The notes beneath the pieces are model-generated. The model searched no databases. It saw only the letters and a list, made by a program, of their open reading frames with translations, and was not told the DNA's origin. 64,000 nt of DNA, taken from positions 1 to 64,000 of the forward strand of contig NZ_ALAB01000039.1 in the NCBI RefSeq assembly GCF_000280055.1, given 5' to 3'. The position numbers were made by a program, and so were the translations under genes. Numbering within the stretch: the stretch's first letter is position 1; every line of letters begins with the position of its first letter. Origin of the DNA: Alishewanella aestuarii B11. GTDB lineage: Bacteria; Pseudomonadota; Gammaproteobacteria; Enterobacterales; Alteromonadaceae. Positions 9,254 to 64,000 of this stretch are shown in pieces.

Positions 9254-10087
9254 ATGGAACAACGGATCCTGCTTACCGCCTGCCCGGACTCGAAAGGGTT
9301 GATCGCCCAAATCACCAATATTTGCTACAAGCATCAGTTAAATATTAGTCGGAATACTGAATATGTGGATCCGGTCAGTGGGCAGTTCTATATGCGAACC
9401 GAGCTGGACGGTTTTTTTAACGAAACCACCTTACTCGCCGATCTGGATCGGGCTTTACCGGCAGGCAGCTCCCGCAGTTTGTTGCGTCGTCAGGCAAAGC
9501 GGGTAGTGATTCTGGTAACCAAAGAGGCACATTGCCTCGGTGATATCCTGATAAAAGTTTACGATGGCTCGTTATCGCTGGATATCGCGGCGGTAGTGGG
9601 GAATCATCCGCAACTGGCCACACTCGCGGAACGCTTTGCGATTCCTTATCATTACGTTAGCCATCAGGGATTAAGTCGCAAAGCGCATGAGCAGGCGTTA
9701 CTGCAGACGATTCAGCCCTATCAGCCGGAGTATTTAATTCTGGCCAAATTTATGCGAATTCTAACGCCGGCCTTTGTCGCCGAGTTTCCAAACCGGATTA
9801 TCAATATCCATCACAGCTTTTTGCCTGCCTTTATTGGTGCCAGACCCTATCAGCAAGCGTTTGAGCGTGGGGTGAAAATCATCGGAGCAACAGCGCATTT
9901 TGTAAATAATCAATTGGATGAAGGTCCGATTATTCAGCAGAAAGTGCTGCCGGTTGATCACAGCTACAGCGCGGAAGATATGGAAAGAGCCGGTCGTGAT
10001 GTTGAAAAAGCCGCGCTTAGCGAAGCGTTGCAGTTTGTTACTGAGGATCGGGTCTTTGTACACGGCAACAAAACGGTGATTTTGTAG
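9254..10087 (+). CDS. purU: Formyltetrahydrofolate deformylase PurU
   Basis: This 277-residue enzyme hydrolyses 10-formyl-THF to formate and THF, supplying formate to PurT and balancing one-carbon pools. It has an N-terminal ACT domain (about residues 3-80, starting LLTACPDSKGLIAQI) and a C-terminal formyltransferase-type catalytic domain with NIHHSFLPAF and a downstream DEGPII motif. The reading frame opens at 9185, but the ATG at 9254 (MEQRILL) gives the family-length protein and has GGAAG 8 bases upstream. It converges with can across only 2 bp. Confidence 0.95.
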   Translation: MEQRILLTACPDSKGLIAQITNICYKHQLNISRNTEYVDPVSGQFYMRTELDGFFNETTLLADLDRALPAGSSRSLLRRQAKRVVILVTKEAHCLGDILIKVYDGSLSLDIAAVVGNHPQLATLAERFAIPYHYVSHQGLSRKAHEQALLQTIQPYQPEYLILAKFMRILTPAFVAEFPNRIINIHHSFLPAFIGARPYQQAFERGVKIIGATAHFVNNQLDEGPIIQQKVLPVDHSYSAEDMERAGRDVEKAALSEALQFVTEDRVFVHGNKTVIL

Positions 10088-10089
10088 CC

Positions 10090-10725
10090 CTAGTCGCTGT
10101 CTGGCAGTTCCAGCGGATCCAGTGCGTAGATCCTGTCAATTTGCTCCAGACTCGAATGGCTGACTTTTAAATCCTTGACCCGGCCATTACGTAAGCTATA
10201 CACCCAGCCATGAACACTCAGTTGTTGGCCGCGTTCCCAGGCTTCCTGGACAAAGCTGGTATGGCAGAGATTTTTTACCTGCTCAGCGACATTGAGTTCA
10301 ATCAAGCGGTTCACCCGTTGATCCTCGGTTTCCAGGCAATCAATTTGCTGGCGGTGCAGCGCATAAACATCTTTTACATTACGTAGCCAGTTATCGACGA
10401 AACCTACCCGCTGATTTAATAGCGCTGCTTTAACACCACCACAGCCATAATGGCCAACCACTAAAATATGTTTCACTTTCAAAATATCGATAGCGTATTG
10501 CAATACCGACAAGCAGTTCATATCGGAATGCACCACCAGATTAGCGACGTTGCGATGTACAAAGAGTTCGCCCGGCATCAGGCCGACGATTTCATTAGCA
10601 GGAACCCGGCTGTCAGAGCAACCAATCCACAGATACTCGGGTGCCTGTTGCTCGGAGAGTTGTTTAAAGAAGCCAGGCTGTTCACGTTCAATACGATCGG
10701 CCCAATTGCGGTTGTTAATAAACAA
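10090..10725 (-). CDS. can: Beta-carbonic anhydrase, 5' end removed by an IS insertion
   Basis: The product interconverts CO2 and bicarbonate using zinc. Ligand and catalytic motifs are present: CSDSR (about residues 36-40) and HYGCGG (about residues 92-97). The body is full length compared with E. coli Can. The native ATG and first four codons are separated from it by the IS element at 10740-12064. Joining 12077-12065 to 10730 recreates an open start MPDFNNLFINN. What remains contiguous begins only at a TTG (10725) with no good ribosome-binding site. The frame upstream is open back to the transposase stop (10771), in the same register. It may be silent, weakly translated from TTG/ATT, or expressed by reinitiation after the transposase. 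Confidence 0.93.
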   Translation of the reverse strand: MFINNRNWADRIEREQPGFFKQLSEQQAPEYLWIGCSDSRVPANEIVGLMPGELFVHRNVANLVVHSDMNCLSVLQYAIDILKVKHILVVGHYGCGGVKAALLNQRVGFVDNWLRNVKDVYALHRQQIDCLETEDQRVNRLIELNVAEQVKNLCHTSFVQEAWERGQQLSVHGWVYSLRNGRVKDLKVSHSSLEQIDRIYALDPLELPDSD

Positions 10726-10730
10726 ATTGT

Positions 10731-10739
10731 TAAAGTCTG
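10731..10739. repeat. Target-site duplication, left copy
   Basis: TAAAGTCTG lies directly outside the left end of the IS and recurs exactly at 12065-12073. Nine base pairs is the duplication size made by IS10-like elements. Confidence 0.95.
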
Positions 10740-12064
10740 CTGAGGGATCCCCACAAATTGCTCCCCCATATTATCCACACTCTATCAGATCGTCCGGTGT
10801 CCAGCACCACTGAGCTATCCACTGCAAAATTTGCTTTAGCCCTTGCTGATAATATCGCCTACTTATATTAAGCTTTTGCTCTTTACAGAGCAGTATCCCA
10901 AGGGAACAAAGAGCGAGCACTCGTCTATGCTTAACGGTATTAGCCTGATAACGTCGTTGTAAGCCAGCCTTCTCACCCGCACTGCCAAGCAGGTAATGAA
11001 ACCAGTTAGCTAGGGCTGCCAAGAGCAGTAAGATCTCCAAGCGTGATTTCTTGCGAGTACCATGTAGCTCGCTACCTAACCCGTAACGGTGACTTTTTTG
11101 ATCCCGGAAGCTTTCTTCTATCTGCATTCGGCAGCTATAGCATTTGGCAATTTTCTCGGCATATCCATGACTTTCTGGTAAAGAGGAAACTAATAGCCAA
11201 GGCTCTTTGTATTGCCTGTTTTTATCTCTTTTCAATAACTTGTAACCTTTTCCAACCAAAACAGCTTGTGTTTCATAGCTCTGAGATTGGGTGAGTAAGA
11301 TGTTGCCGACATGCTTGGGCTTGGCTTTGGCCTTACGATAAAATTGGTTAACAGAGATAAACTCTTCCTGCCCTGCCACTTTCAGCTTCACATTCCCTCT
11401 GACTCTGGCGACATAATGCCAGCCGAATTCGCGTACTTGTTTTAACCAAGGCACTTTAAATCCGGCGTCTGTCACGATAATTGGTTTGCAGCCTTCTGGT
11501 AACATGGCTTTAAGTTGCTCTAAGAATGCCTGATGCAAACGGGGGCTGGTGTACTCTTCTTCAGCAGCGATTTTTTGCAACAACGTTAATGCTCTGCCGT
11601 CCGCAGCAATACTCGCTCGTAAAATAAAGTGACGCTTGGCGGTATCCGCATTACTCCAATCGACTAAAATCGTTGGATGGGAATGGGGGGTTACAACAGA
11701 AGCAGTCAACGCGGCATAAATCAATGGTAGCTCTCGTTGCAGATTGGCATTATTGAGTAATCTGTCGGCTCGCTTGATGCTGATTTTGTCTGAGGGTCCT
11801 GGCATAGCGCGACCAATTGCTGTAACGGTGCAACGAGCGTCTTTAGCAAGAGCAGTAACCGCATCTAACAAGACAGAAAATCTGGCTTTATGCATGGTTT
11901 TTGGGGTGACAAATCGGAGGAAATCAGCGAGCATAGTTTTAACATTCATGGCGAGCATCCGCGGTGTGGGATTTTTGGCGAATGATCAGATCGGGAACCG
12001 CCATGAATGTTCCCTAATCACCTAAATTTTTATTTTAACTACAAAATTTCTGGGGATACCTCAG
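10740..12064 (-). mobile_element. Complete IS4-family (IS10-like) insertion sequence, 1,325 bp
   Basis: The left end reads CTGAGGGATCCCCACAAATT. The right end, read inwards on the minus strand, starts CTGAGGTATCCCCAGAAATT. These 20-base terminal inverted repeats differ at two positions and resemble IS10 ends (CTGA.AGATCCCC type). Both sides carry the identical 9-bp duplication TAAAGTCTG. One intact 396-codon transposase frame fills it. A DnaA-box sequence TTATCCACA sits at 10771-10779, 31 bp inside the left end. The element is inserted within codon 5 of can in the same orientation as can. No second copy is present in the window. Confidence 0.96.
10771..11958 (-). CDS. IS4-family DDE transposase (IS10-like)
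   Basis: This 395-residue transposase is intact. DDE residues are visible: first Asp in LVDWSNAD, second Asp in IVTDAGFKVPW, and Glu within the Y-(2)-R-(3)-E-(6)-K signature YSCRMQIEESFRDQK that defines the IS4 family. The C-terminal segment with QANTVKHRRVLALCSLG matches IS10-like relatives. A second in-frame ATG at 11949 is an alternative start. The stop (10771-10773) is in the same frame as the downstream can remnant, 15 codons before its TTG. Confidence 0.95.
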   Translation of the reverse strand: MLAMNVKTMLADFLRFVTPKTMHKARFSVLLDAVTALAKDARCTVTAIGRAMPGPSDKISIKRADRLLNNANLQRELPLIYAALTASVVTPHSHPTILVDWSNADTAKRHFILRASIAADGRALTLLQKIAAEEEYTSPRLHQAFLEQLKAMLPEGCKPIIVTDAGFKVPWLKQVREFGWHYVARVRGNVKLKVAGQEEFISVNQFYRKAKAKPKHVGNILLTQSQSYETQAVLVGKGYKLLKRDKNRQYKEPWLLVSSLPESHGYAEKIAKCYSCRMQIEESFRDQKSHRYGLGSELHGTRKKSRLEILLLLAALANWFHYLLGSAGEKAGLQRRYQANTVKHRRVLALCSLGILLCKEQKLNISRRYYQQGLKQILQWIAQWCWTPDDLIECG

Positions 12065-12073
12065 TAAAGTCTG
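12065..12073. repeat. Target-site duplication, right copy
   Basis: This is an exact copy of TAAAGTCTG found at 10731-10739, directly outside the right IS end. Confidence 0.95.
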
Positions 12074-12077
12074 GCAT
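12065..12077 (-). pseudogene. can: Detached first codons of can
   Basis: Read on the minus strand, ATG CCA GAC TTT A (12077 to 12065) is the original 5' end of can. It now runs into the IS end and meets a TAG after 12 codons. Its native promoter must lie to the right, between here and the divergent H-NS-like gene at 12343. Confidence 0.85.
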
Positions 12078-12342
12078 CTTAGCGCTCACGAAGACGAAAT
12101 CGCGACACAATAACGGATTTTTTGCAAACTACAACACTGACCAGCCAAAACGGACTCAGCTACTGTATTGGCAGCACAGGCGTTTACAATAAATTTAGAT
12201 AGCATATATCAAAACTAATGGGTACAAATTAGTAAGGCAATATTAAATGAATGATGGCTGAATAATATCGATATTATAAAATCACTTTTGTTGTTAAATC
12301 ATTTCCGTTATCATGTCGCAGATTATTAAACGGGAGTCTAAG

Positions 12343-12870
12343 ATGTCTTTATTACTTGATAAACGCGAGTTAAAGAAAGCCGCAAGAGAATTAACGCTGG
12401 CTAAGTTAAATGATGTTCTGGAGACGTTACAATCAGTGTTGGCAGAACGTCAGTCTGAGCTGGATGCGATCAATGAAATTGAACGCTTGGCCCGTGAAAA
12501 AGGATTTACAATGGAGCAGTTAGGTTATAAACAGGTACAAGAGGTGGTTGCCAGTACACCGGCGTCAGTAAGCAGTGATGACAAAAAGCCGGTTAAGCCT
12601 AAATTTAAAACACTGAATAAAGATAGCCAGTATTTTTATGTTGAGAATGGCAAGTTACAATTATTGCGGACTCATACAATGAAAAAAGGTCTACAGGATC
12701 GGGGTATTGATGTGGTACCAGCCGCCAAGGTAGACAAAAAGTTTGCCAAAGATATTGAGCGTTTACTTACTGAAGCCACAGAGCAAGCGGTGGCCAATTT
12801 TAATCAGAAAGTTGCCATCTGGAATGCCTGGGCTGCAGCCAATGGTGGTGAGATCCTGCAAAGCCGCTAA
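12343..12870 (+). CDS. H-NS-like nucleoid protein, divergent DNA-binding half
   Basis: The N-terminal 60 residues form a helical, coiled-coil region (LAKLNDVLETLQSVLAERQS, then a GFTMEQLG turn) that resembles the H-NS oligomerisation domain. A polar linker rich in Ser/Lys/Pro follows. The C-terminal half has FYVENGKLQLLRTHTMKKGL, roughly aligned with the Y-x-x-NG-x-x-W-x-G-x-G core of H-NS but lacking the tryptophan and the glycine loop, then about 60 helical residues of unknown type. The ATG at 12343 follows GGGAG at 6 bases and is chosen over the ATG at 12313. The upstream 150 bp is very AT-rich, as for self-regulated H-NS genes. The family call is tentative. Confidence 0.55.
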   Translation: MSLLLDKRELKKAARELTLAKLNDVLETLQSVLAERQSELDAINEIERLAREKGFTMEQLGYKQVQEVVASTPASVSSDDKKPVKPKFKTLNKDSQYFYVENGKLQLLRTHTMKKGLQDRGIDVVPAAKVDKKFAKDIERLLTEATEQAVANFNQKVAIWNAWAAANGGEILQSR

Positions 12871-54458: not shown

Positions 54459-55286
54459 ATGGCTCTATATGTAAACACCAACACCAGTTCATTAAACGCT
54501 CAGCGCCAGTTATTTAACTCAGGTAGTGCGTTAGATACAGCATTTAAACGTTTATCATCCGGTTTCCGGATTAACAGCGCCGCCGACGATGCAGCCGGTC
54601 TGCAGATTTCAAACCGCCTGACCAGTCAAATTAACGGCTTAGACCAAGCCGCGCGTAATGCCAACGACGGTATCTCTCTGGCGCAGGTTGCCGAGGGGGC
54701 CATGGAAGAGATCACTAACTCATTGCAGCGCATCCGTACTCTTGCTATTCAGTCACAGAACGGTATCAATAGTACGGATGACAGAGCTGCGCTGCAAAAA
54801 GAAGTGAGTGCATTAAAAACCGAAATTACCCGTGTTGCGGATACCACTCAATTCGGCACGACGCTGCTGCTGGACGGAAACTTAAATGTTGATTTCTTGG
54901 TCGGTGCTAATGCTGGACAGAATATAAATGTAGCGCTGACAAATAGTGGTGGTTATGGAACTACGGCATTGGGTTTGGCTAGCTTAAGTGTCGCGTCCGT
55001 TACAGCTGCGGGTTCGGCGTTAGCATTAATTGATACAGCAATCGGGACTATTGATGGTGCGCGCGCGGATTTAGGTGCATTGCAAAACCGCTTCCAGGCC
55101 ACTATTCGTAACCTGACCAATATATCAGAGAACGTGTCAGGCGCCCGCAGCCGGATCCGGGATACGGATTTTGCCAAAGAAACCGCAGAGTTAACACGCA
55201 CGCAGATCCTGCAGCAAACCAGCACTACCGTGCTGGCGCAGGCTAATCAGCGTCCGCAAGCCGCGCTGAGTTTACTGCAAGGTTAG
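54459..55286 (+). CDS. fliC: Flagellin 1
   Basis: This 275-residue flagellin has D0/D1 helices, with LDTAFKRLSSGFRINSAADD near the N-terminus and SRIRDTDFAKETAELTRTQI with LAQANQRPQAALSLL at the C-terminus, separated by a short variable part of about 60 residues. It has no cysteines and no outer D2/D3 domains. The protein equals flagellin 2 apart from one extra C-terminal Gly. It has its own sigma-28 promoter and terminator. Confidence 0.97.
   Translation: MALYVNTNTSSLNAQRQLFNSGSALDTAFKRLSSGFRINSAADDAAGLQISNRLTSQINGLDQAARNANDGISLAQVAEGAMEEITNSLQRIRTLAIQSQNGINSTDDRAALQKEVSALKTEITRVADTTQFGTTLLLDGNLNVDFLVGANAGQNINVALTNSGGYGTTALGLASLSVASVTAAGSALALIDTAIGTIDGARADLGALQNRFQATIRNLTNISENVSGARSRIRDTDFAKETAELTRTQILQQTSTTVLAQANQRPQAALSLLQG
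54768..55252 (+). repeat. 485-bp tract identical between flagellins 1 and 2, first copy
   Basis: By direct base-by-base comparison, 54768-55252 equals 55789-56273 with no mismatch. Upstream and downstream of the tract the two genes differ by scattered synonymous changes. Confidence 0.93.
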
Positions 55287-55301
55287 TAAAATCATTCGGA
55301 T

Positions 55302-55327
55302 AAAAGGCCGCTTAATTGCGGCTTTTT
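55302..55327 (+). terminator. Terminator of flagellin gene 1
   Basis: GCCGC (55307-55311) and GCGGC (55318-55322) with a 6-base loop, preceded by As and followed by five Ts. Confidence 0.83.
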
Positions 55328-55375
55328 GCCTTTCGATAAGAAATCAATATTTAAGCGTTATTTTTATAAATTATC

Positions 55376-55402
55376 TAAAGTATTCTCTTTTTTTTCCGAT
55401 AC
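55376..55402 (+). promoter_or_regulatory. Sigma-28 promoter of flagellin gene 2
   Basis: TAAAGTAT, 11 bases rich in T, TCCGATAC. It has three mismatches to the consensus, so it is probably weaker than the flagellin 1 promoter. Confidence 0.75.
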
Positions 55403-55479
55403 ATAAGTAACACGAAAATATAGTAGCATCGTCAGTTATGGCGGTTGTCAGTGTTTAATTAGGTAGCAGGAGAGTTAAG

Positions 55480-56304
55480 ATGGCTTTATATGTCAATACC
55501 AATACTTCATCGCTGAATGCACAACGCCAGTTGTTTAACTCAGGTAGTGCATTAGATACAGCATTTAAACGTTTATCATCCGGTTTCCGGATTAACAGCG
55601 CCGCCGACGATGCTGCCGGTCTGCAGATTTCAAACCGCCTGACCAGTCAGATTAACGGCTTAGACCAGGCAGCGCGTAATGCCAACGACGGTATCTCTCT
55701 GGCGCAGGTTGCCGAGGGTGCCATGGAAGAGATCACCAACTCATTGCAGCGCATCCGTACTCTGGCTATTCAATCACAGAACGGTATTAATAGTACGGAT
55801 GACAGAGCTGCGCTGCAAAAAGAAGTGAGTGCATTAAAAACCGAAATTACCCGTGTTGCGGATACCACTCAATTCGGCACGACGCTGCTGCTGGACGGAA
55901 ACTTAAATGTTGATTTCTTGGTCGGTGCTAATGCTGGACAGAATATAAATGTAGCGCTGACAAATAGTGGTGGTTATGGAACTACGGCATTGGGTTTGGC
56001 TAGCTTAAGTGTCGCGTCCGTTACAGCTGCGGGTTCGGCGTTAGCATTAATTGATACAGCAATCGGGACTATTGATGGTGCGCGCGCGGATTTAGGTGCA
56101 TTGCAAAACCGCTTCCAGGCCACTATTCGTAACCTGACCAATATATCAGAGAACGTGTCAGGCGCCCGCAGCCGGATCCGGGATACGGATTTTGCCAAAG
56201 AAACCGCAGAGTTAACACGCACGCAGATCCTGCAGCAAACCAGCACTACCGTGCTGGCGCAGGCTAATCAGCGGCCACAGGCCGCATTAAGTTTACTGCA
56301 GTAA
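55480..56304 (+). CDS. fliC: Flagellin 2
   Basis: This 274-residue flagellin is identical in amino acids to residues 1-274 of flagellin 1. The DNA differs at many silent positions in the first 110 codons and in the last ten, but not in the middle 485 bp. It has its own, weaker-looking sigma-28 promoter. A hairpin at 56312-56347 separates it from flagellin 3, which has no visible promoter of its own. Confidence 0.97.
   Translation: MALYVNTNTSSLNAQRQLFNSGSALDTAFKRLSSGFRINSAADDAAGLQISNRLTSQINGLDQAARNANDGISLAQVAEGAMEEITNSLQRIRTLAIQSQNGINSTDDRAALQKEVSALKTEITRVADTTQFGTTLLLDGNLNVDFLVGANAGQNINVALTNSGGYGTTALGLASLSVASVTAAGSALALIDTAIGTIDGARADLGALQNRFQATIRNLTNISENVSGARSRIRDTDFAKETAELTRTQILQQTSTTVLAQANQRPQAALSLLQ
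55789..56273 (+). repeat. 485-bp tract identical between flagellins 1 and 2, second copy
   Basis: This is an exact match to 54768-55252. Confidence 0.93.
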
Positions 56305-56311
56305 CTGAGGT

Positions 56312-56347
56312 AGAGTGATGAACTGCTATAAGGCGGCTCATCACTCT
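56312..56347 (+). promoter_or_regulatory. Hairpin in the flagellin 2-3 gap, possible attenuator
   Basis: AGAGTGATGA (56312-56321) pairs perfectly with TCATCACTCT (56338-56347). There is no T-run, and flagellin 3 follows at 56370 without a sigma-28 site, so the hairpin may reduce read-through or protect mRNA ends. Confidence 0.5.
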
Positions 56348-56369
56348 CTAACCGAGAAGGAATTGCAGC

Positions 56370-57194
56370 ATGTCGTTAGTGGTAAATACTAATCAATCAT
56401 CGCTCGCATCACAGCGTTTACTTAGCAATGCGACCTCGGGGGTAACCACCAGCTTTGAACGCTTAACGTCAGGTTTTCGTATTAACCGTGCAGCTGACGA
56501 TGCTGCCGGGTTGGTGATAAGCAATGTATTGACCAGCCAGGTTAATGGCTTAGATCAGGCGGTACGTAATGCTAACGATGCCATTTCACTGGTTCAGGTG
56601 GCGGAAGGGGCCTTGGATGAAATTGGAGTCAGTTTACAGCGTATGCGGGTATTAACTATACAGTCAGAGAGCGGCATTAATACAGCAGCCGACATCACGG
56701 CTATCCAGCAAGAATATAATGAGCTGGCGGCTTCTATCCAGAACATTGCCGATAATACTGAGTTTGGTAGCCTGAAATTACTTGATGGTAGTGCTCAAAC
56801 TTTGGTTTTTCAAGTGGGGGCTAATACCGGACAAAAAATTGAAATTGATTTGTCTGCTGGCTATGGTAGCGGAGTGATGGGTCTTAATATTGCAGCAGTG
56901 CAATTAGGTGTGGATGATGTTGCTAGCTCGCTTAGCACGCTGGATGCAGCCATTTTAGCTATCGACAATGGTCGAACTGAGCTGGGGGCTTGGCAAAATG
57001 TGTTGGATACAACAATACGTAATTTGACCAATATCAGTGAAAATGTATCGGCATCACGTAGCCGTATCCGCGACACTGACTACGCCAGAGAAACAACCGA
57101 GTTAACCCGCACTCAAATTATACAACAAAGCAGTACTACAATGTTGGCACAGGCAAATCAGCGGCCTCAGGCTGCATTAAGTGTTTTAAATTAA
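56370..57194 (+). CDS. Flagellin 3, divergent paralogue
   Basis: This 274-residue flagellin keeps the terminal helices (ERLTSGFRINRAADDAAGLV at the start and SRIRDTDYARETTELTRTQI at the end) but differs widely from the other three, for example TSGVTTSFERL instead of SALDTAFKRL and a different centre (QTLVFQVGANTGQKIEIDLS). It is probably a minor flagellin with a specific position in the filament. No sigma-28 promoter was found before it, so it is likely transcribed from flagellin 2. AGAAGGA precedes the start. Confidence 0.95.
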   Translation: MSLVVNTNQSSLASQRLLSNATSGVTTSFERLTSGFRINRAADDAAGLVISNVLTSQVNGLDQAVRNANDAISLVQVAEGALDEIGVSLQRMRVLTIQSESGINTAADITAIQQEYNELAASIQNIADNTEFGSLKLLDGSAQTLVFQVGANTGQKIEIDLSAGYGSGVMGLNIAAVQLGVDDVASSLSTLDAAILAIDNGRTELGAWQNVLDTTIRNLTNISENVSASRSRIRDTDYARETTELTRTQIIQQSSTTMLAQANQRPQAALSVLN

Positions 57195-57311
57195 TGTTTG
57201 TAACTAGAAAAAATGGTGCTGTTTGATTGCAGTCATATCGCTCCATTATATCGGACAACATTCAGGCTAATATCCCGGAGTGACCACCTGAATCGGTCTG
57301 ATAGTCTCTAC

Positions 57312-57336
57312 AACCACCTGCAAAGGTGGTTTTTTT
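57312..57336 (+). terminator. Terminator after flagellin 3
   Basis: ACCACCT (57313-57319) pairs with AGGTGGT (57324-57330), followed by six Ts. Confidence 0.88.
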
Positions 57337-57406
57337 AATCTAAATAACCCTACTTTTTACGTTTTCGGTACTCCAAGTTTTTTTTCAAAAAAAGTAATAA
57401 TTTTTC

Positions 57407-57433
57407 TAAAGTTCTTAATAAGCCGGTCGATAA
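57407..57433 (+). promoter_or_regulatory. Sigma-28 promoter of flagellin gene 4
   Basis: TAAAGTTC, 11 bases, GTCGATAA. It has two mismatches to the consensus and lies about 100 bp before the ATG. Confidence 0.87.
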
Positions 57434-57533
57434 CGTTAATAAGTCAAGTTGCAGCTTGGCTCAGTTAACGGGATACCCGTATTTTAAATATCAGTTGAAG
57501 GTAGTACTTTCACCGACAACTAAGGAGTGACTC

Positions 57534-58358
57534 ATGGCTTTATATGTAAACACCAACACCTCGTCGCTGAATGCGCAGCGTCAGCTGTTTAACTCAGGTA
57601 ATAACTTGGATACGGCGTTCAAACGTTTGTCTTCAGGTTTTCGTATTAACAGCGCGGCAGATGACGCAGCCGGCTTGCAGATTTCAAACCGTTTAACCAG
57701 CCAGGTAAATGGTTTAGATCAGGCTGCGCGTAATGCTAACGACGGTATTTCAGTAGCTCAGGTAGCGGAAGGCGCAATGGAGGAGATTACTAACTCTTTA
57801 CAGCGTATCCGAACCCTGGCGATTCAATCGCAAAACGGTATCAATAGCGCGGATGACAGAGCTGCTTTGCAAAAAGAAGTTGATGCGTTGAAATCTGAAA
57901 TGACTCGGATCGCTAGCGATACCCAGTTCGGCACAACTAATCTATTGACAGGCTCTTATACTGCCGATTTCTTAGTTGGGGCAAATGCTGGACAAAATAT
58001 TACTATTGCCCTGACAAACTCTGGTGGATATGGTACTGCTGCACTGGGACTTTCTGGTTTAAGTGTAGCCTCAGTCACTGCAGCAGGTTCAGCTTTAGCG
58101 CTAATTGATACAGCAATAGGCACTATTGATGGCGCACGAGCCGATTTAGGTGCGTTGCAGAACAGGTTTCAAGCGACAATTCGAAACTTAACCAACATCT
58201 CTGAAAACGTATCAGGTGCTCGTAGTCGCATTCGTGATACTGACTTTGCTCGTGAAACCGCTGAGCTGACTCGTCAGCAGATCCTGCAGCAAACCAGCAC
58301 AACCGTGTTGGCGCAGGCTAATCAGCGGCCACAGGCAGCTTTATCGTTATTGGGTTAA
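57534..58358 (+). CDS. fliC: Flagellin 4
   Basis: This 274-residue flagellin is very close in protein sequence to flagellins 1 and 2 (for example SVASVTAAGSALALIDTAIG is shared) but has many silent differences and replacements such as NNLDTAFKRL, IASDTQFGTTNLLTGSYTAD and TRQQILQQ. It is not part of the recent conversion tract. It has its own promoter and ends at a hairpin that overlaps the flaG promoter. Confidence 0.97.
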   Translation: MALYVNTNTSSLNAQRQLFNSGNNLDTAFKRLSSGFRINSAADDAAGLQISNRLTSQVNGLDQAARNANDGISVAQVAEGAMEEITNSLQRIRTLAIQSQNGINSADDRAALQKEVDALKSEMTRIASDTQFGTTNLLTGSYTADFLVGANAGQNITIALTNSGGYGTAALGLSGLSVASVTAAGSALALIDTAIGTIDGARADLGALQNRFQATIRNLTNISENVSGARSRIRDTDFARETAELTRQQILQQTSTTVLAQANQRPQAALSLLG

Positions 58359-58825: not shown

Positions 58826-60289
58826 ATGTCTGGTATTAACTTTCTGGGGGCAGCTTCAGGTTTACCGCTTGAGGAGCTGGTATCTACTTTAGTAAAAGTA
58901 GAGCGTGACAGTAAACTCGGGCGCATTAATACTACGAAAAAGACATTAAACACCTCATTGTCTGGGGTTGGGCAGCTAAAATCTGCTTTGTCTGCGTTTC
59001 AGGATGCGGTAAAAAAACTGAGTGGAAACACCTTAAATGCCCGAATCGCAACCGTTACTCAGCCAACAGAGAATAAAACCTACCTAGAAGCCTCTGCTTC
59101 CAGCACGGCCGCGGCAGCGCGCTTTGATATTAAAGTGAACCAGCTGGCATCAGGCAGCCGTTTGGAAAGCGCTGATGCAACCTTTTCGTCTGCTAACGAC
59201 GTAATTTCCACAACTAATGGCACTTTAACATTTGCCGCCAACGGTAAAAGTTTTGATGTCGAAGTAACCGCAGGCATGACACTTAATGAGCTACGACAAA
59301 AAATTAATGCAAAAAGTGATAATTTTGGCGTAAATGCCAATATTATTAATGCTGGCGGTGCTATTGGTACTAAGCTGGTATTAACCTCTGACGAAACAGG
59401 CTTTGGCAATGATTTGGTTATCACCAATAACAATGCCGAGCTTGATAACGTCTCAACCGTGGCAACAGGCACCACAGCGGGTTTAAGTGTCATCCAGGCA
59501 GCACAAGATGCCATTATTGAAATTGATGGTATCACTGCTAACAACGCCAGTAATACCTTTAGTAATGTTATCCAGGATGTCACCCTTACCGTTAAAGCGG
59601 TGACGCCTGATGGTAACAATGCCAGTGTGAATATTGCCACTGATAATGCCAGTGCAGAAGCAAACATTCAGAATTTTATTAATAACTATAATGTGCTGGT
59701 TGACCAAATTGCTAACCTGACGAAAAAACGTACTTTAGGCGCAGACGGTAAAACTGTGACTGCAGAGGGGGGGGCATTAGCTACGGATCAATTACCAAAA
59801 AACATTATGTCGCAGTTACGTGGTTTATTAGGTAATGCCATTGGTGGTGCAGATGCATCAATATCAACCTTATATTCGTTGGGCATTACATTTCGCGAAG
59901 ATGGTAAGCTTGAGATTTCCAGTAGCTCTCAGTTTGGGGCGGATTCTGGCCGTAAACGCTTTGATAAAGCACTTAGTGAAAACTACGACGCTGTGGCTAA
60001 GCTTTTTGGCGGCGATACGGGGTTGGCAACAACACTAGATGATTTTTTAAAAGAGTTTACAAAGTCAGGCGGAATTATTGCCAGTAAAGAAAATTCACTG
60101 AAAACACAAATTGATAAAAACACTAAAGATTTAGACGCAGCTAACCGATATATAGCTAGTTTCGAGCAAACTTTGCGTAGCCGTTACACTGCATTAGATG
60201 CTTTACTTGGCTCAATGCAAAATATGGCCTCTACTGTGACGGCTCAACTAACAAGTCTGCCCGGTTTTATTACCAATAAATCTAAATAG
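58826..60289 (+). CDS. fliD: Flagellar filament cap protein FliD (HAP2)
   Basis: This 487-residue cap protein has the N-terminal GINFLGAASGLPLEELVSTL, a central domain with GTTAGLSVIQAAQDAIIEID (the flagellin hook IN motif), and a C-terminal coiled coil ending YTALDALLGSMQNMASTVTA. It folds flagellin subunits at the filament tip. AGGTGG lies before the ATG. fliS follows after 11 bp. Confidence 0.96.
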   Translation: MSGINFLGAASGLPLEELVSTLVKVERDSKLGRINTTKKTLNTSLSGVGQLKSALSAFQDAVKKLSGNTLNARIATVTQPTENKTYLEASASSTAAAARFDIKVNQLASGSRLESADATFSSANDVISTTNGTLTFAANGKSFDVEVTAGMTLNELRQKINAKSDNFGVNANIINAGGAIGTKLVLTSDETGFGNDLVITNNNAELDNVSTVATGTTAGLSVIQAAQDAIIEIDGITANNASNTFSNVIQDVTLTVKAVTPDGNNASVNIATDNASAEANIQNFINNYNVLVDQIANLTKKRTLGADGKTVTAEGGALATDQLPKNIMSQLRGLLGNAIGGADASISTLYSLGITFREDGKLEISSSSQFGADSGRKRFDKALSENYDAVAKLFGGDTGLATTLDDFLKEFTKSGGIIASKENSLKTQIDKNTKDLDAANRYIASFEQTLRSRYTALDALLGSMQNMASTVTAQLTSLPGFITNKSK

Positions 60290-60300
60290 TGGAGTGCATC

Positions 60301-60735
60301 ATGAGCTATGGCATTAAAGCATACAAATCAGTTGGTATTAAAGATGATCTTGCGGTGGCAGACCCCCACCGTGTTATTCAGTTGTTAATGCAAGGTGCTT
60401 TGGAAAATATGGCTAAAGCCAAAGGTTGTATTGAACGCAAAGATTTTGTTGGCAAATCAGAGTCAATTTCGAAGGCGATAAACATTATTTCTGCTTTACA
60501 AGGTTGTTTGGATATGAGTGCAGGACAGATTTCCGATAACCTCTTTGCTTTATACGATTTTATGCTTGACCGGTTAATTCAAGCCAGCGGTGAGAAAAGC
60601 ATTGAAATGCTTAATGAAGTAATGGAAATTCTGCTCACTATAAAAGGTGCTTGGGATCAAATTCCGGTTGCAGAACGTGAGAAAGGCTATCAGTTGCAGG
60701 CCCAGAAACACCAGCAGCAAGCAGTGGGCGCTTAA
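60301..60735 (+). CDS. fliS: Flagellin export chaperone FliS
   Basis: This helical chaperone of about 144 residues binds the C-terminal flagellin helix. Its core has ADPHRVIQLLMQGALENMAK and the conserved LFALYDFMLDRLIQAS. The frame opens at 60289, but GGAG 6 bases upstream of the ATG at 60301 and the family start MSYGIKAYKS fix the start. It overlaps the next gene by 1 bp. Confidence 0.95.
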   Translation: MSYGIKAYKSVGIKDDLAVADPHRVIQLLMQGALENMAKAKGCIERKDFVGKSESISKAINIISALQGCLDMSAGQISDNLFALYDFMLDRLIQASGEKSIEMLNEVMEILLTIKGAWDQIPVAEREKGYQLQAQKHQQQAVGA

Positions 60736-61040
60736 TGCATTTAAAAAACAGAGCGCAGCGTTGTGAAAAGCTGCGCCAACAAATCGAAAAGTTGGTACGT
60801 AAAGAGATGTACCCAGTTGAGAGCTTGGTAGAACTTATTGAGCAGTTAAATGCTACGCTCAATCAACCTGCTAGCCCAGATGACAACATCGCTGAATATT
60901 CAGCTTTCTTACAGCTAAATCTTGACTGGCTGCAGTTAATCATGGCACAACTGTCAGCAGAAAAAGACGCCGTAGCTGTCAGCATGAACAACATCAGGCA
61001 GGGTAGAAAAGCTCTGCGTAGCTATGGTCAACACAACTAA
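60735..61040 (+). CDS. FliT-like flagellar chaperone
   Basis: This small helical protein of 101 residues with coiled-coil character (LRQQIEKLVRKEMYPVESLV) is encoded directly after fliS with a 1-bp TAATG overlap, the normal place for fliT. FliT chaperones FliD and inhibits FlhDC in enterics. Sequence similarity is weak by eye, so the call rests largely on position and size. Confidence 0.65.
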   Translation: MHLKNRAQRCEKLRQQIEKLVRKEMYPVESLVELIEQLNATLNQPASPDDNIAEYSAFLQLNLDWLQLIMAQLSAEKDAVAVSMNNIRQGRKALRSYGQHN

Positions 61041-61059
61041 CTAAAATCAGGCATACCGC

Positions 61060-63870
61060 ATGCTGAAGTATATCAACTACCAGCTACACTCTGATCAAAA
61101 AATCCAACAGCAGCTTGAACGTGACGCTGCAATTCAAATTGATAAACGCCTTAAAGCAAACCTTGCGGCTTTTTCTCAGCATATGCCCAGTATTTTGCCG
61201 CTAATACAGGCTTACAAAGTTCAGCAATACTCGTTGTTTTGCACAAAACAAGGCGAAATGAATATCGTCAATTTTGCCACAGGTCGGGTCTGGTATAGTG
61301 ATAACGCTACTAGCGAAGTTGCTGAGGAGGTTAAAAGTTTTTGTCAAAAAGCACCCTTTACAGCTTTAAGCACTATTCATCCATCTGAACAACAAGATTG
61401 GCAAACAGAATCTAAACCAACCAGTATAGACGTGTTGATTATGTTTGGTCTTGGTTTAGGTTATCAGTTAAATGATTTACTTAGTAAAGTAAAAATAAAA
61501 TACTTAATCATTTATGAGCCAAGCTTAGATGTTTTATTTTGTAGTTTGCAAGCAAATGATTGGCAGAAAACCTTTGATATCTTAACCAAGAGTGGTACGC
61601 AGATTTTTTTGCAACTAGAAAATGCTGGCAATTCGTTGTCTGAAGACTTAATTGAGCTAAGCGCTGTTATAAAATTTGAGCGAGTTTATGTTTATCGGCA
61701 TTATTTTCATGCAACAATGGATAGGGTTGTTGAATATCTATTATCTGGACGTTTTAAATTAGGAGAACAGAATGTCGAGATTGCTTCGTTCTTGCCTTAT
61801 GATGATTTTAATGATTCAGTCTCTGAGCGGGCTGGCAATGTACTCGGTAACAAAAAATTTGAATTGAAAAGAGAAGCAAGCCAGCTGTACGATAGAAATT
61901 TGTCTGCTTTCAAAAAATATTACCCAAATATCTTTTGTCAGATAGAAAAGTATAAAACTCATAGTTGGGTGTGTATACTGGATGATTCCGGAAAAGATAA
62001 TATATTTCATAAAACGCGTAGGGCGTTTTTTTACCATGATAGTGAGCAAGATTCCGAAGAATTGGTTTCTTATTTCTCACTTAATCCATCTAAAGATAAT
62101 GTTGCCTTGCGCCAAAGCTCGACTGGTAAATTTGACCACTATATTCATTTTTCTTATGCTGAGAAAGTTGAGAAATTAATCGAAAAAAATATCCTCGGAC
62201 ATCTCGAACTGCCAGCTGAAGTAAGTTCACTTGTGGTTTTTGGTATATGTCTAGGCAGGCACATTGATGTTTTGCTTAATAGCTATACTATACAAAATTT
62301 ATATATCTTTGAACCGAATCTAGATTATTTTTATGCAAGCCTTCATGTTTTTGATTGGGATGGTTTATTTAGCGCGGCTGCTAAGGGAGGTCAGCGAGTT
62401 TATCTAAATCTTGGAGGCGATGGTTCTGATTATTTCAAAGATATAATTGCTCAGTTTTATCTTGCAGGTCCTTATTCTATTGCCGACACCTATATCTTAA
62501 CTTCTTATTACAATAATAGGATGAGTAAAGCTATAGCAGAGCTTCGCGAAGAGTTAAAAGTGGTGTTGGCTTTTGGAGAATATTTCGACCATGTTCGATA
62601 TGGAGTAGCGCACACTTACCACAGCTTGACTCATAATCATCTATTCCTTAAAGAAAATAACGCTTCGTATAAAGATTTAGAAATATTAAATATGCCCGTT
62701 TTTATAGTAGGCAACGGACCGTCATTAGATGTAAATTTTGATTATATAAGAAGTTATCGCGATCGAGTAATTGTTATCAGTTGCGGCACGGCTCTCTACT
62801 CGCTTTATAAATATGGTATAACACCTGATTTTCATGCAGAACTAGAACAAAACAGAGCTACTTACTGCTGGATTAATAGGGTGGAAGATAAATCATTTTT
62901 GCGCAAGATTAGGTTGATAAGTATAAATGGTATACATCCTGAAACGGCGTCGTTATTTAAAGATGTTATGTTATGCTTCAAGAGCGGTGAAGCATCAGCA
63001 AATCTCTTTAGAAATGGCTTACAGAGGTTAGGCTTTAAAATATCTGAGATATCATATGCTTATCCTACAGTAAGTAATTTAGCATTAAACTTTGCCTTGC
63101 ATGTTGGATTCAAAACAATTTATCTCTTTGGCGTAGATTTGGGCTATGCTGATGTAAAGTATCATCACTCTAAAGCTTCTGCTTATTATAAAAAAGATGG
63201 GTCAGAGATATTTAGCTATGAAAAAGCTCATGGCTCCGGCGATCGAGTTAAAGGTAATTTTCGCCCCTATGTATATACAAAAAGGGAGTTCAATTTGTCT
63301 AGAAAACTTATTGAAGACGCTATTAAGAGTAATAAAGGAGCTGCAGAGATTTATAACTGTAGTGATGGGGTGAAGATTGATGGGGCAATACCGCTTAAGG
63401 TTGATAATATTTTAATTAAAAACTTAGGTTTTGATAAAGAGCACGGAATAGTAGAGTTTTGTGACAAAGCATATTATTCAGATTTAAAAGGAAGCTCTGA
63501 GCTCGTTTTTTCTAATCTTAGTATGGAAAAGCTTTCCATAAGCGTAAAAGAATGGCTAGCTATTCTTGAACAAGAGGTTATAGACCAGAATGGAGCTAGA
63601 GAAATAATTAGGGCGCAGTGGGGCCTGTTACATAGAAAAATAGCCTGTCTAGACGATCCAACACCTTTTCTTTTGCAAGGGAGCTTTTACTACTTTGGGG
63701 GCATCATGACAAAATTAGCGGCAAATATAAGTAATAACAACCCCCAAGTATTGGCTTGTTTTAATGAAATTAAAAAGATTTGGAGAGAGTATATTGAAGT
63801 TGCAAGTACAGAGTTTTTTGAAGAACCTATGAAATTTGATGATGTGGATGTTTCTCACTTGTTTTCTTAA
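61060..63870 (+). CDS. Maf-type motility accessory factor / DUF115 glycosyltransferase with duplicated N-terminal domain
   Basis: This 936-residue protein has a DUF115/MptE-like core (about residues 545-780) with VFIVGNGPSLD, VISCGTALYSLYKYGITPD and TIYLFGVDLGYAD, typical of Maf proteins that attach pseudaminic or legionaminic acid to flagellin. Two related N-terminal units precede it: FGLGLGYQL...IIYEPSLDVLFCSLQANDW near residues 127-170 and FGICLGRHI...IFEPNLDYFYASLHVFDW near 392-430. Maf relatives usually carry one such unit and are about 600-700 residues (from memory). The DNA is strongly AT-rich from about 61,450, unlike upstream flagellar genes, so it was probably acquired or belongs to a variable glycan island. 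It lies 19 bp after the fliT-like gene. Confidence 0.88.
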   Translation: MLKYINYQLHSDQKIQQQLERDAAIQIDKRLKANLAAFSQHMPSILPLIQAYKVQQYSLFCTKQGEMNIVNFATGRVWYSDNATSEVAEEVKSFCQKAPFTALSTIHPSEQQDWQTESKPTSIDVLIMFGLGLGYQLNDLLSKVKIKYLIIYEPSLDVLFCSLQANDWQKTFDILTKSGTQIFLQLENAGNSLSEDLIELSAVIKFERVYVYRHYFHATMDRVVEYLLSGRFKLGEQNVEIASFLPYDDFNDSVSERAGNVLGNKKFELKREASQLYDRNLSAFKKYYPNIFCQIEKYKTHSWVCILDDSGKDNIFHKTRRAFFYHDSEQDSEELVSYFSLNPSKDNVALRQSSTGKFDHYIHFSYAEKVEKLIEKNILGHLELPAEVSSLVVFGICLGRHIDVLLNSYTIQNLYIFEPNLDYFYASLHVFDWDGLFSAAAKGGQRVYLNLGGDGSDYFKDIIAQFYLAGPYSIADTYILTSYYNNRMSKAIAELREELKVVLAFGEYFDHVRYGVAHTYHSLTHNHLFLKENNASYKDLEILNMPVFIVGNGPSLDVNFDYIRSYRDRVIVISCGTALYSLYKYGITPDFHAELEQNRATYCWINRVEDKSFLRKIRLISINGIHPETASLFKDVMLCFKSGEASANLFRNGLQRLGFKISEISYAYPTVSNLALNFALHVGFKTIYLFGVDLGYADVKYHHSKASAYYKKDGSEIFSYEKAHGSGDRVKGNFRPYVYTKREFNLSRKLIEDAIKSNKGAAEIYNCSDGVKIDGAIPLKVDNILIKNLGFDKEHGIVEFCDKAYYSDLKGSSELVFSNLSMEKLSISVKEWLAILEQEVIDQNGAREIIRAQWGLLHRKIACLDDPTPFLLQGSFYYFGGIMTKLAANISNNNPQVLACFNEIKKIWREYIEVASTEFFEEPMKFDDVDVSHLFS

Positions 63871-64000
63871 AGTTACGCGAACTGGACTTTTTATATAACT
63901 CTTCCATAATTCTAATACGCGCCAGATCCATACGGCGTATAAATAGACCTAAATTGTTCAGCATTTCTGCCGGGGCACTGGATAATCTCTAAAGGTTTGG
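63827..64000 (-). pseudogene. Decayed, frameshifted fragment resembling a methyltransferase-like N-terminus
   Basis: The minus strand reads KPLEIIQCP, then shifts frame at the run of four Cs (plus-strand G at 63972-63975). The next frame reads APAEMLNNLGLFIRRMDLAR followed by IRIMEELYKK. After about 25 more residues it drifts into the antisense of maf and stops at 63827. From memory, the LGLF-I-R-x-x-LARI-x-x-MxELYKK pattern resembles the N-terminal region of a methyltransferase-like family (sometimes annotated as a carnitine CoA-transferase) found in glycan loci, but the enzyme domain is missing. It is probably a remnant, though the upstream part lies outside the window. Confidence 0.4.

Follow-up and report, generated by a model that had tools for sequence, protein, structure and literature searches.

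Architecture of the interrupted can locus

The window analyzed here, a 64,000-nt stretch of Alishewanella aestuarii B11, carries at 10740-12064 a complete 1325-bp insertion sequence of the IS4 family, IS10-like in type, which separates the start of can from the body of the enzyme. The features of the locus are as follows, in window coordinates.

10090..10725, minus strand: can body, beta-carbonic anhydrase read from TTG at native codon 7, 211 aa (PF00484, 188.5 bits; NF007756, 269.9 bits)
10726..10770, minus strand: 15 open codons from the transposase TAA to the TTG, in frame with both, with an ATT at 10758-10756 after GGGGGAG (sequence reading, Shine-Dalgarno scan)
10731..10739, no strand: target duplication TAAAGTCTG, can-body side (repeat search)
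10740..12064, minus strand: IS4-family, IS10-like insertion sequence (inverted repeats, 9-bp duplications, NF033591)
10740..10759, no strand: terminal inverted repeat on the transposase 3' side, towards the can body (repeat search)
10771..11958, minus strand: intact transposase ORF, 395 aa, with an alternative ATG at 11949 (ORF list, profile scans)
11941..12011, minus strand: hairpin with perfect 13-nt arms at 11941-11953 and 11999-12011, over the transposase ATG at 11949 (repeat search, fold test)
12039..12077, minus strand: native can ATG and four codons, now a 12-codon stub terminating within the element (comparison with A. agri BL06)
12045..12064, no strand: terminal inverted repeat at the transposase 5' end (repeat search)
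12065..12073, no strand: target duplication TAAAGTCTG, on the side of the native can start (repeat search)
12078..12312, minus strand: can upstream region, expected to hold the native promoter, intergenic to a divergent ORF at 12313 (weak matches only, loose scan)

The terminal inverted repeats span 20 nt and are 90% complementary (18 of 20 pairs), and the transposase clears both the IS4 model NF033591 (339.7 bits against a cut-off of 152) and PF01609 (84.3 bits against 23). NF033591 is a model of IS4-family DDE transposases. Inverted repeats, an intact transposase, and a perfect duplication had been described in the initial annotation; all three were found, the last as a 9-bp repeat for which the computed chance of an exact match between two given 9-mers is about 4e-6. 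Exact 9-bp duplications, nine different sequences in all, flank each of the nine full-length copies tested that have both flanks available: the can copy, its 74% identical relative within this genome, two from plasmids, and five from the genome taken as A. jeotgali KCTC 22429 (G007). Five more loci (L004, L056-L059) are partial, interrupted, or at a contig edge and fall outside this count. Compared by eye, TAAAGTCTG / CAGACTTTA matches neither IS10 target consensus, NGCTNAGCN or NPuCNNNGPyN, as given in the available part of PMC4574204, which also records IS10 insertions outside the first target consensus.

The element shares with IS10 and iso-IS10R an IS4-model DDE transposase, a length of about 1.3 kb, and 9-bp duplications, and a plasmid copy annotated as iso-IS10R matches it at 98.8%. 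Likeness to IS10R is established through the family model and this annotated copy, not through direct alignment to a reference IS10R. For the antisense RNA of IS10, which comes from an outward promoter close to the transposase start, an Rfam search of 10000-12500, up to E 1, returned no family match. IS10 has protection against transposase made from incoming transcripts. The hairpin over the transposase start codon is a feature distinct from the antisense RNA (fold z -2.52; 2 of 200 shuffles equally stable), and its arms are retained, sometimes shorter, in three relatives at 65-76% identity. Judged from its fold, the hairpin, in RNA entering from outside, should stop transcripts from the can promoter from making transposase.

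Distribution of the element

At full identity, the element occurs once in the present genome, alongside 17 other matches: the 74% copy, one 165-bp stretch at 91%, and fragments at 71-94%. The 71-94% fragments, several of which lie at contig ends, mark a more distant multicopy element. The 74% copy is a full-length relative with its own 9-bp duplication (L003, G000:C24:815-2138), and the 165-bp match is an end piece (L004, G000:C5:102356-102520).

Some match to the element turns up in 23 of the 31 genomes of the genus, and long copies of about 99% identity occur in the genome taken as A. agri BL06 (G001; element positions 49-1325), in G007 (five full copies), and in G024 (49-1325). At least 30 of 147 genomes in a family sample matched, G055 at 99%. 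Among 72,556 plasmid records, 27 carry the element at 98.8-99.1%, and a search of higher sensitivity picked up 485 records, of which 454 lie at 60-80%. The copies in the genus and on plasmids thus mark the element as mobile and common to Alishewanella and enterobacterial plasmids.

Two arrangements among these copies deserve mention. A 98.8% copy on an IncC plasmid (L155 3001-5894, NC_018994.1) is oriented with its transposase 3' end facing blaCMY-4, just as the present element faces can. Both G024 (G024:C5, L057 572-624 and 1501-2778) and G001 (G001:C26 77382-82443) hold the element split into pieces 1-53 and 49-1325, about 0.9 kb apart and overlapping by 5 bases, a pattern suggestive of a further insertion within the element. 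Near the split element, these two genomes also hold additional end pieces (1-52 and 1290-1325) spaced about 1 kb from each other.

The insertion site and its empty counterpart

Insertion took place in codon 5 of can, as initially annotated, leaving ATG CCA GAC TTT A on the far side of the element with the native ATG at 12077-12075. When the flanks are joined with one duplication kept, they align with the A. agri BL06 locus over 966 bp without a gap and with 16 mismatches, bearing out the earlier observation that removing the element and one duplication rejoins the can start to the enzyme body. In A. agri BL06, the closest relative found, can is uninterrupted and the 9-mer is present once. The start region was read in the 30 genus genomes other than the present one (31 in total): by tblastn positions, 29 of 29 relatives have an ATG 18 nt before codon 7, and so does the thirtieth, G019. 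A native can start inside the end of the element is ruled out, since all 30 relatives start at this ATG, and relatives sharing the junction sequences but lacking the duplication structure were sought and not found.

The structure of the insertion is certain. An assembly chimaera is ruled out by the exact duplication and by the position in the middle of a 245,648-base contig. The insertion is real and recent, in line with the first description, because the duplication is accompanied by an empty site in a sister species, an undamaged can body, and near-identical copies of the element elsewhere. The best explanation is that it postdates the split from A. agri. Literature searching, with subscription journals largely outside its coverage, never paired the strain with the gene and yielded no published account of the insertion. 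As a yardstick, E. coli can spans at least 80% in one place in 5374 of 5426 complete genomes, none of the remainder having a smaller piece only and 52 having no match; being blind to an insertion this near the start, the comparison bears only on mid-gene insertions.

State of the can body

The can body is predicted to be a beta-carbonic anhydrase of the Can type. It covers PF00484 from position 1 to 156 of 156, and it passes the carbonate dehydratase equivalog NF007756 (cut-off 251) even without its first residues. The motifs CSDSR and HYGCGG are seen in the translation, and these we take to hold the Cys, Asp, His, and Cys zinc ligands of beta-carbonic anhydrases. E. coli Can (YadF) is alike in belonging to the NF007756 equivalog, and the solved E. 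coli protein 1i6o matches residues 3-200; the difference is that here the native start and first six residues are severed. These six residues precede the Pfam domain and vary among relatives, and in alignments to the best solved homologues query residue 1 pairs with chain residue 5 or 7.

Compared with A. agri BL06, the can body carries seven synonymous and no nonsynonymous differences across 212 codons including the stop. Divergence between the two may predate the insertion, so the comparison shows an absence of decay rather than selection since the insertion.

Routes to expression across the junction

The can body is read from the same strand and in the same frame as the transposase, with a single TAA between them; this is the sole internal stop from 11958 to the can stop. 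Terminator prediction over 10600-12320 of the minus strand returned no site. The idea of a consensus promoter facing can was rejected, as the strict setting gave no promoter-like site on this strand, and the loose scan gave three weak sites against 5.3 expected.

Start signals differ sharply among the candidate codons. All 29 relatives have leucine at codon 7, encoded by TTG in just three. In a crude scan, Shine-Dalgarno pairing at this TTG is -0.5 kcal/mol, compared with -2.0 at the native ATG and with -3.1 to -4.1 at the native ATG in 28 of 29 relatives. The in-frame ATT at 10758, 12 nt past the TAA, is preceded by the Shine-Dalgarno-like GGGGGAG (-7.8 kcal/mol in the same crude scan, spacing 4 nt), and a start there would yield nearly full-length Can. 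Initiation at ATT is very uncommon. Read-through of the TAA that parts transposase from can is judged a minor route. As to the earlier suggestion that the truncated gene is still expressed, the frame is open and co-oriented and expression is possible, but the start signals at the TTG are poor.

The available text of PMC4574204 reports outward promoters at both IS10 ends, and that of PMC9330008 places Pout at the 5' end, so a Pout here would point away from the can body. Also on record in the available text of PMC4574204 is an IS10 copy between promoter and ORF, selected by chloramphenicol. That insertion, upstream of cat in pSU vectors, likewise separates a promoter from a gene body; unlike the present one, it lies 53 bp before the ORF and keeps the start codon, whereas can loses its own (PMC4574204).

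Candidate substitutes for Can

Profile searches of the whole genome of 3,588,054 bases (3.59 Mb) covered beta- and alpha-carbonic anhydrases, hexapeptide proteins, DabA, and SulP-type transporters. PF00484 has one match genome-wide, the interrupted can itself. A second beta-carbonic anhydrase, an alpha-carbonic anhydrase, and the DabA transporter were not found by these family searches and are ruled out as compensating functions. One SulP-type transporter is present (PF00916). Hexapeptide matches number 17 in eight frames, of which one is YrdA-like and the other seven were judged by eye only.

The YrdA-like gamma-carbonic anhydrase matches the solved YrdA 3tio over residues 4-174 of 176 (E 1.1e-75) and is found in every one of the 31 genus genomes (82-100% identity), which makes it normal equipment and no special compensation in the present strain. 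For the idea that another carbonic anhydrase compensates, raised when the insertion was first noticed, the searches thus gave nothing particular to the present strain. In E. coli, a can deletion mutant fails to grow in air but is able to do so when CO2 is raised, and a bicarbonate transporter can stand in for Can, according to the available part of PMC6689103. E. coli possesses YrdA, as the accessible text of PMC13261364 states; that E. coli with YrdA still needs can argues against a simple rescue by YrdA. Reports on its activity diverge: the portion of PMC2914000 available describes earlier tests in which E. coli YrdA had no activity, and that of PMC7470111, a later paper, reports the E. coli gamma-carbonic anhydrase to be active, with a kcat of 5.7 x 10^5 per second.

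Each of the 31 genus genomes has exactly one beta-carbonic anhydrase. In the wider family, PF00484 matches in 361 of 395 genomes (343 of 369 among the better assemblies), and 34 of 395 (26 of 369) have no match, so that a beta-carbonic anhydrase is usual in the family, not universal. A need for this enzyme in air is documented in E. coli and, for Alishewanella, is a presumption.

Interpretation of the insertion allele

The A. aestuarii type strain is grown in air. The best reading of the locus, held tentatively and at a little under even probability, is a weakly expressed can allele from which residual Can is made. The IS10-like element transposed into codon 5, cutting the enzyme body off from the native ATG and the region upstream of it, and RNA that starts either at the native can promoter or in the element may run co-directionally into that body. 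A little Can, shorter by six residues, could then be made from UUG at codon 7; alternatives are a start at AUU within the element end, or reinitiation past the transposase stop. Such an allele would be weak, not dead, with the output of a fast enzyme enough for growth of the strain. Favoring it are the one internal stop, the lack of a terminator-like site, the 212 codons of which none is changed in meaning, the NF007756 score, the lost residues (outside the Pfam domain and variable), the Shine-Dalgarno stretch before ATT, and the IS10-cat precedent. Weighing against it are the poor pairing at TTG, the rare ATT start at 4-nt spacing, the empty strict promoter scan, and a Pout that would face away. 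On a bold reading, the element end itself might supply the start (AUU after GGGGGAG) and so give full-length Can with a new N-terminus.

Close behind the weak allele in likelihood is a null that the strain tolerates thanks to YrdA or to growth with ample CO2. As a null, can would make nothing useful, and the strain would live by the YrdA-like gamma-carbonic anhydrase, by another bicarbonate source such as the SulP-type transporter, or by raised CO2 or rich medium; this is a substantial possibility, if a doubtful one. Speaking for it are the poor start signals of the headless gene, a YrdA-like protein of a kind reported active in E. coli (PMC7470111, in the part available), one PF00916 transporter, and the 34 family genomes that lack a PF00484 match. 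CO2-dependent Brucella strains with a defective carbonic anhydrase are also known, as the available text of PMC6126018 describes. They resemble the present case in the natural loss or weakening of a carbonic anhydrase gene, but their defects, so far as that text describes them, are sequence changes, whereas here the cause is an insertion. Yet the E. coli can mutant fails in air despite YrdA (PMC6689103 and PMC13261364, in the parts available), the earlier assays in the available part of PMC2914000 found that protein inactive, and every genus genome searched keeps its single beta-carbonic anhydrase. A. aestuarii HH-ZS, a different strain, was isolated anaerobically under 10% CO2 (PMC5201056). 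That the present strain grows normally in air without working Can, through YrdA alone or an unrecognized bicarbonate source, is unlikely; if true, it would be a natural knockout in which the beta enzyme is replaced by a gamma-carbonic anhydrase whose role is disputed, or by some unknown route.

Two further readings carry less weight than the weak allele. The insertion may have arisen in the sequenced clone or stock, or be mixed in the culture, in a species whose can is normal; a single assembly is available and apparently mobile copies elsewhere are near-identical to the element, but the exact duplication, the clean junctions, and the mid-contig position make this quite unlikely. That the element brought a better promoter and was kept for raised or re-timed can expression is highly improbable: outward promoters are reported at both IS10 ends (PMC4574204, available part), but no promoter-like site stands at the element end facing can, and translation would still rely on a weak start.

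That an IS10-like element inserts into a gene is routine; the target is unusually important, being the sole beta-carbonic anhydrase found in the genome, with a native start kept in the 30 other genus genomes searched. The strain offers a natural test of whether growth in air can be sustained by a YrdA-type gamma-carbonic anhydrase, or by trace Can from an unusual start codon.

Neighboring features of the window

An H-NS-like ORF (PF22470) lies at 12313-12870, divergent from can. Farther along, four flagellin-like ORFs of 274-275 aa, named by eye, stand in a row at 54459-58358, the first two nearly identical. The G+C content falls to 0.36-0.39 over 60001-64000, compared with 0.45-0.56 in the remaining window, and this low-G+C stretch surrounds a 936-aa ORF at 61060-63870 that adjoins the flagellar genes.
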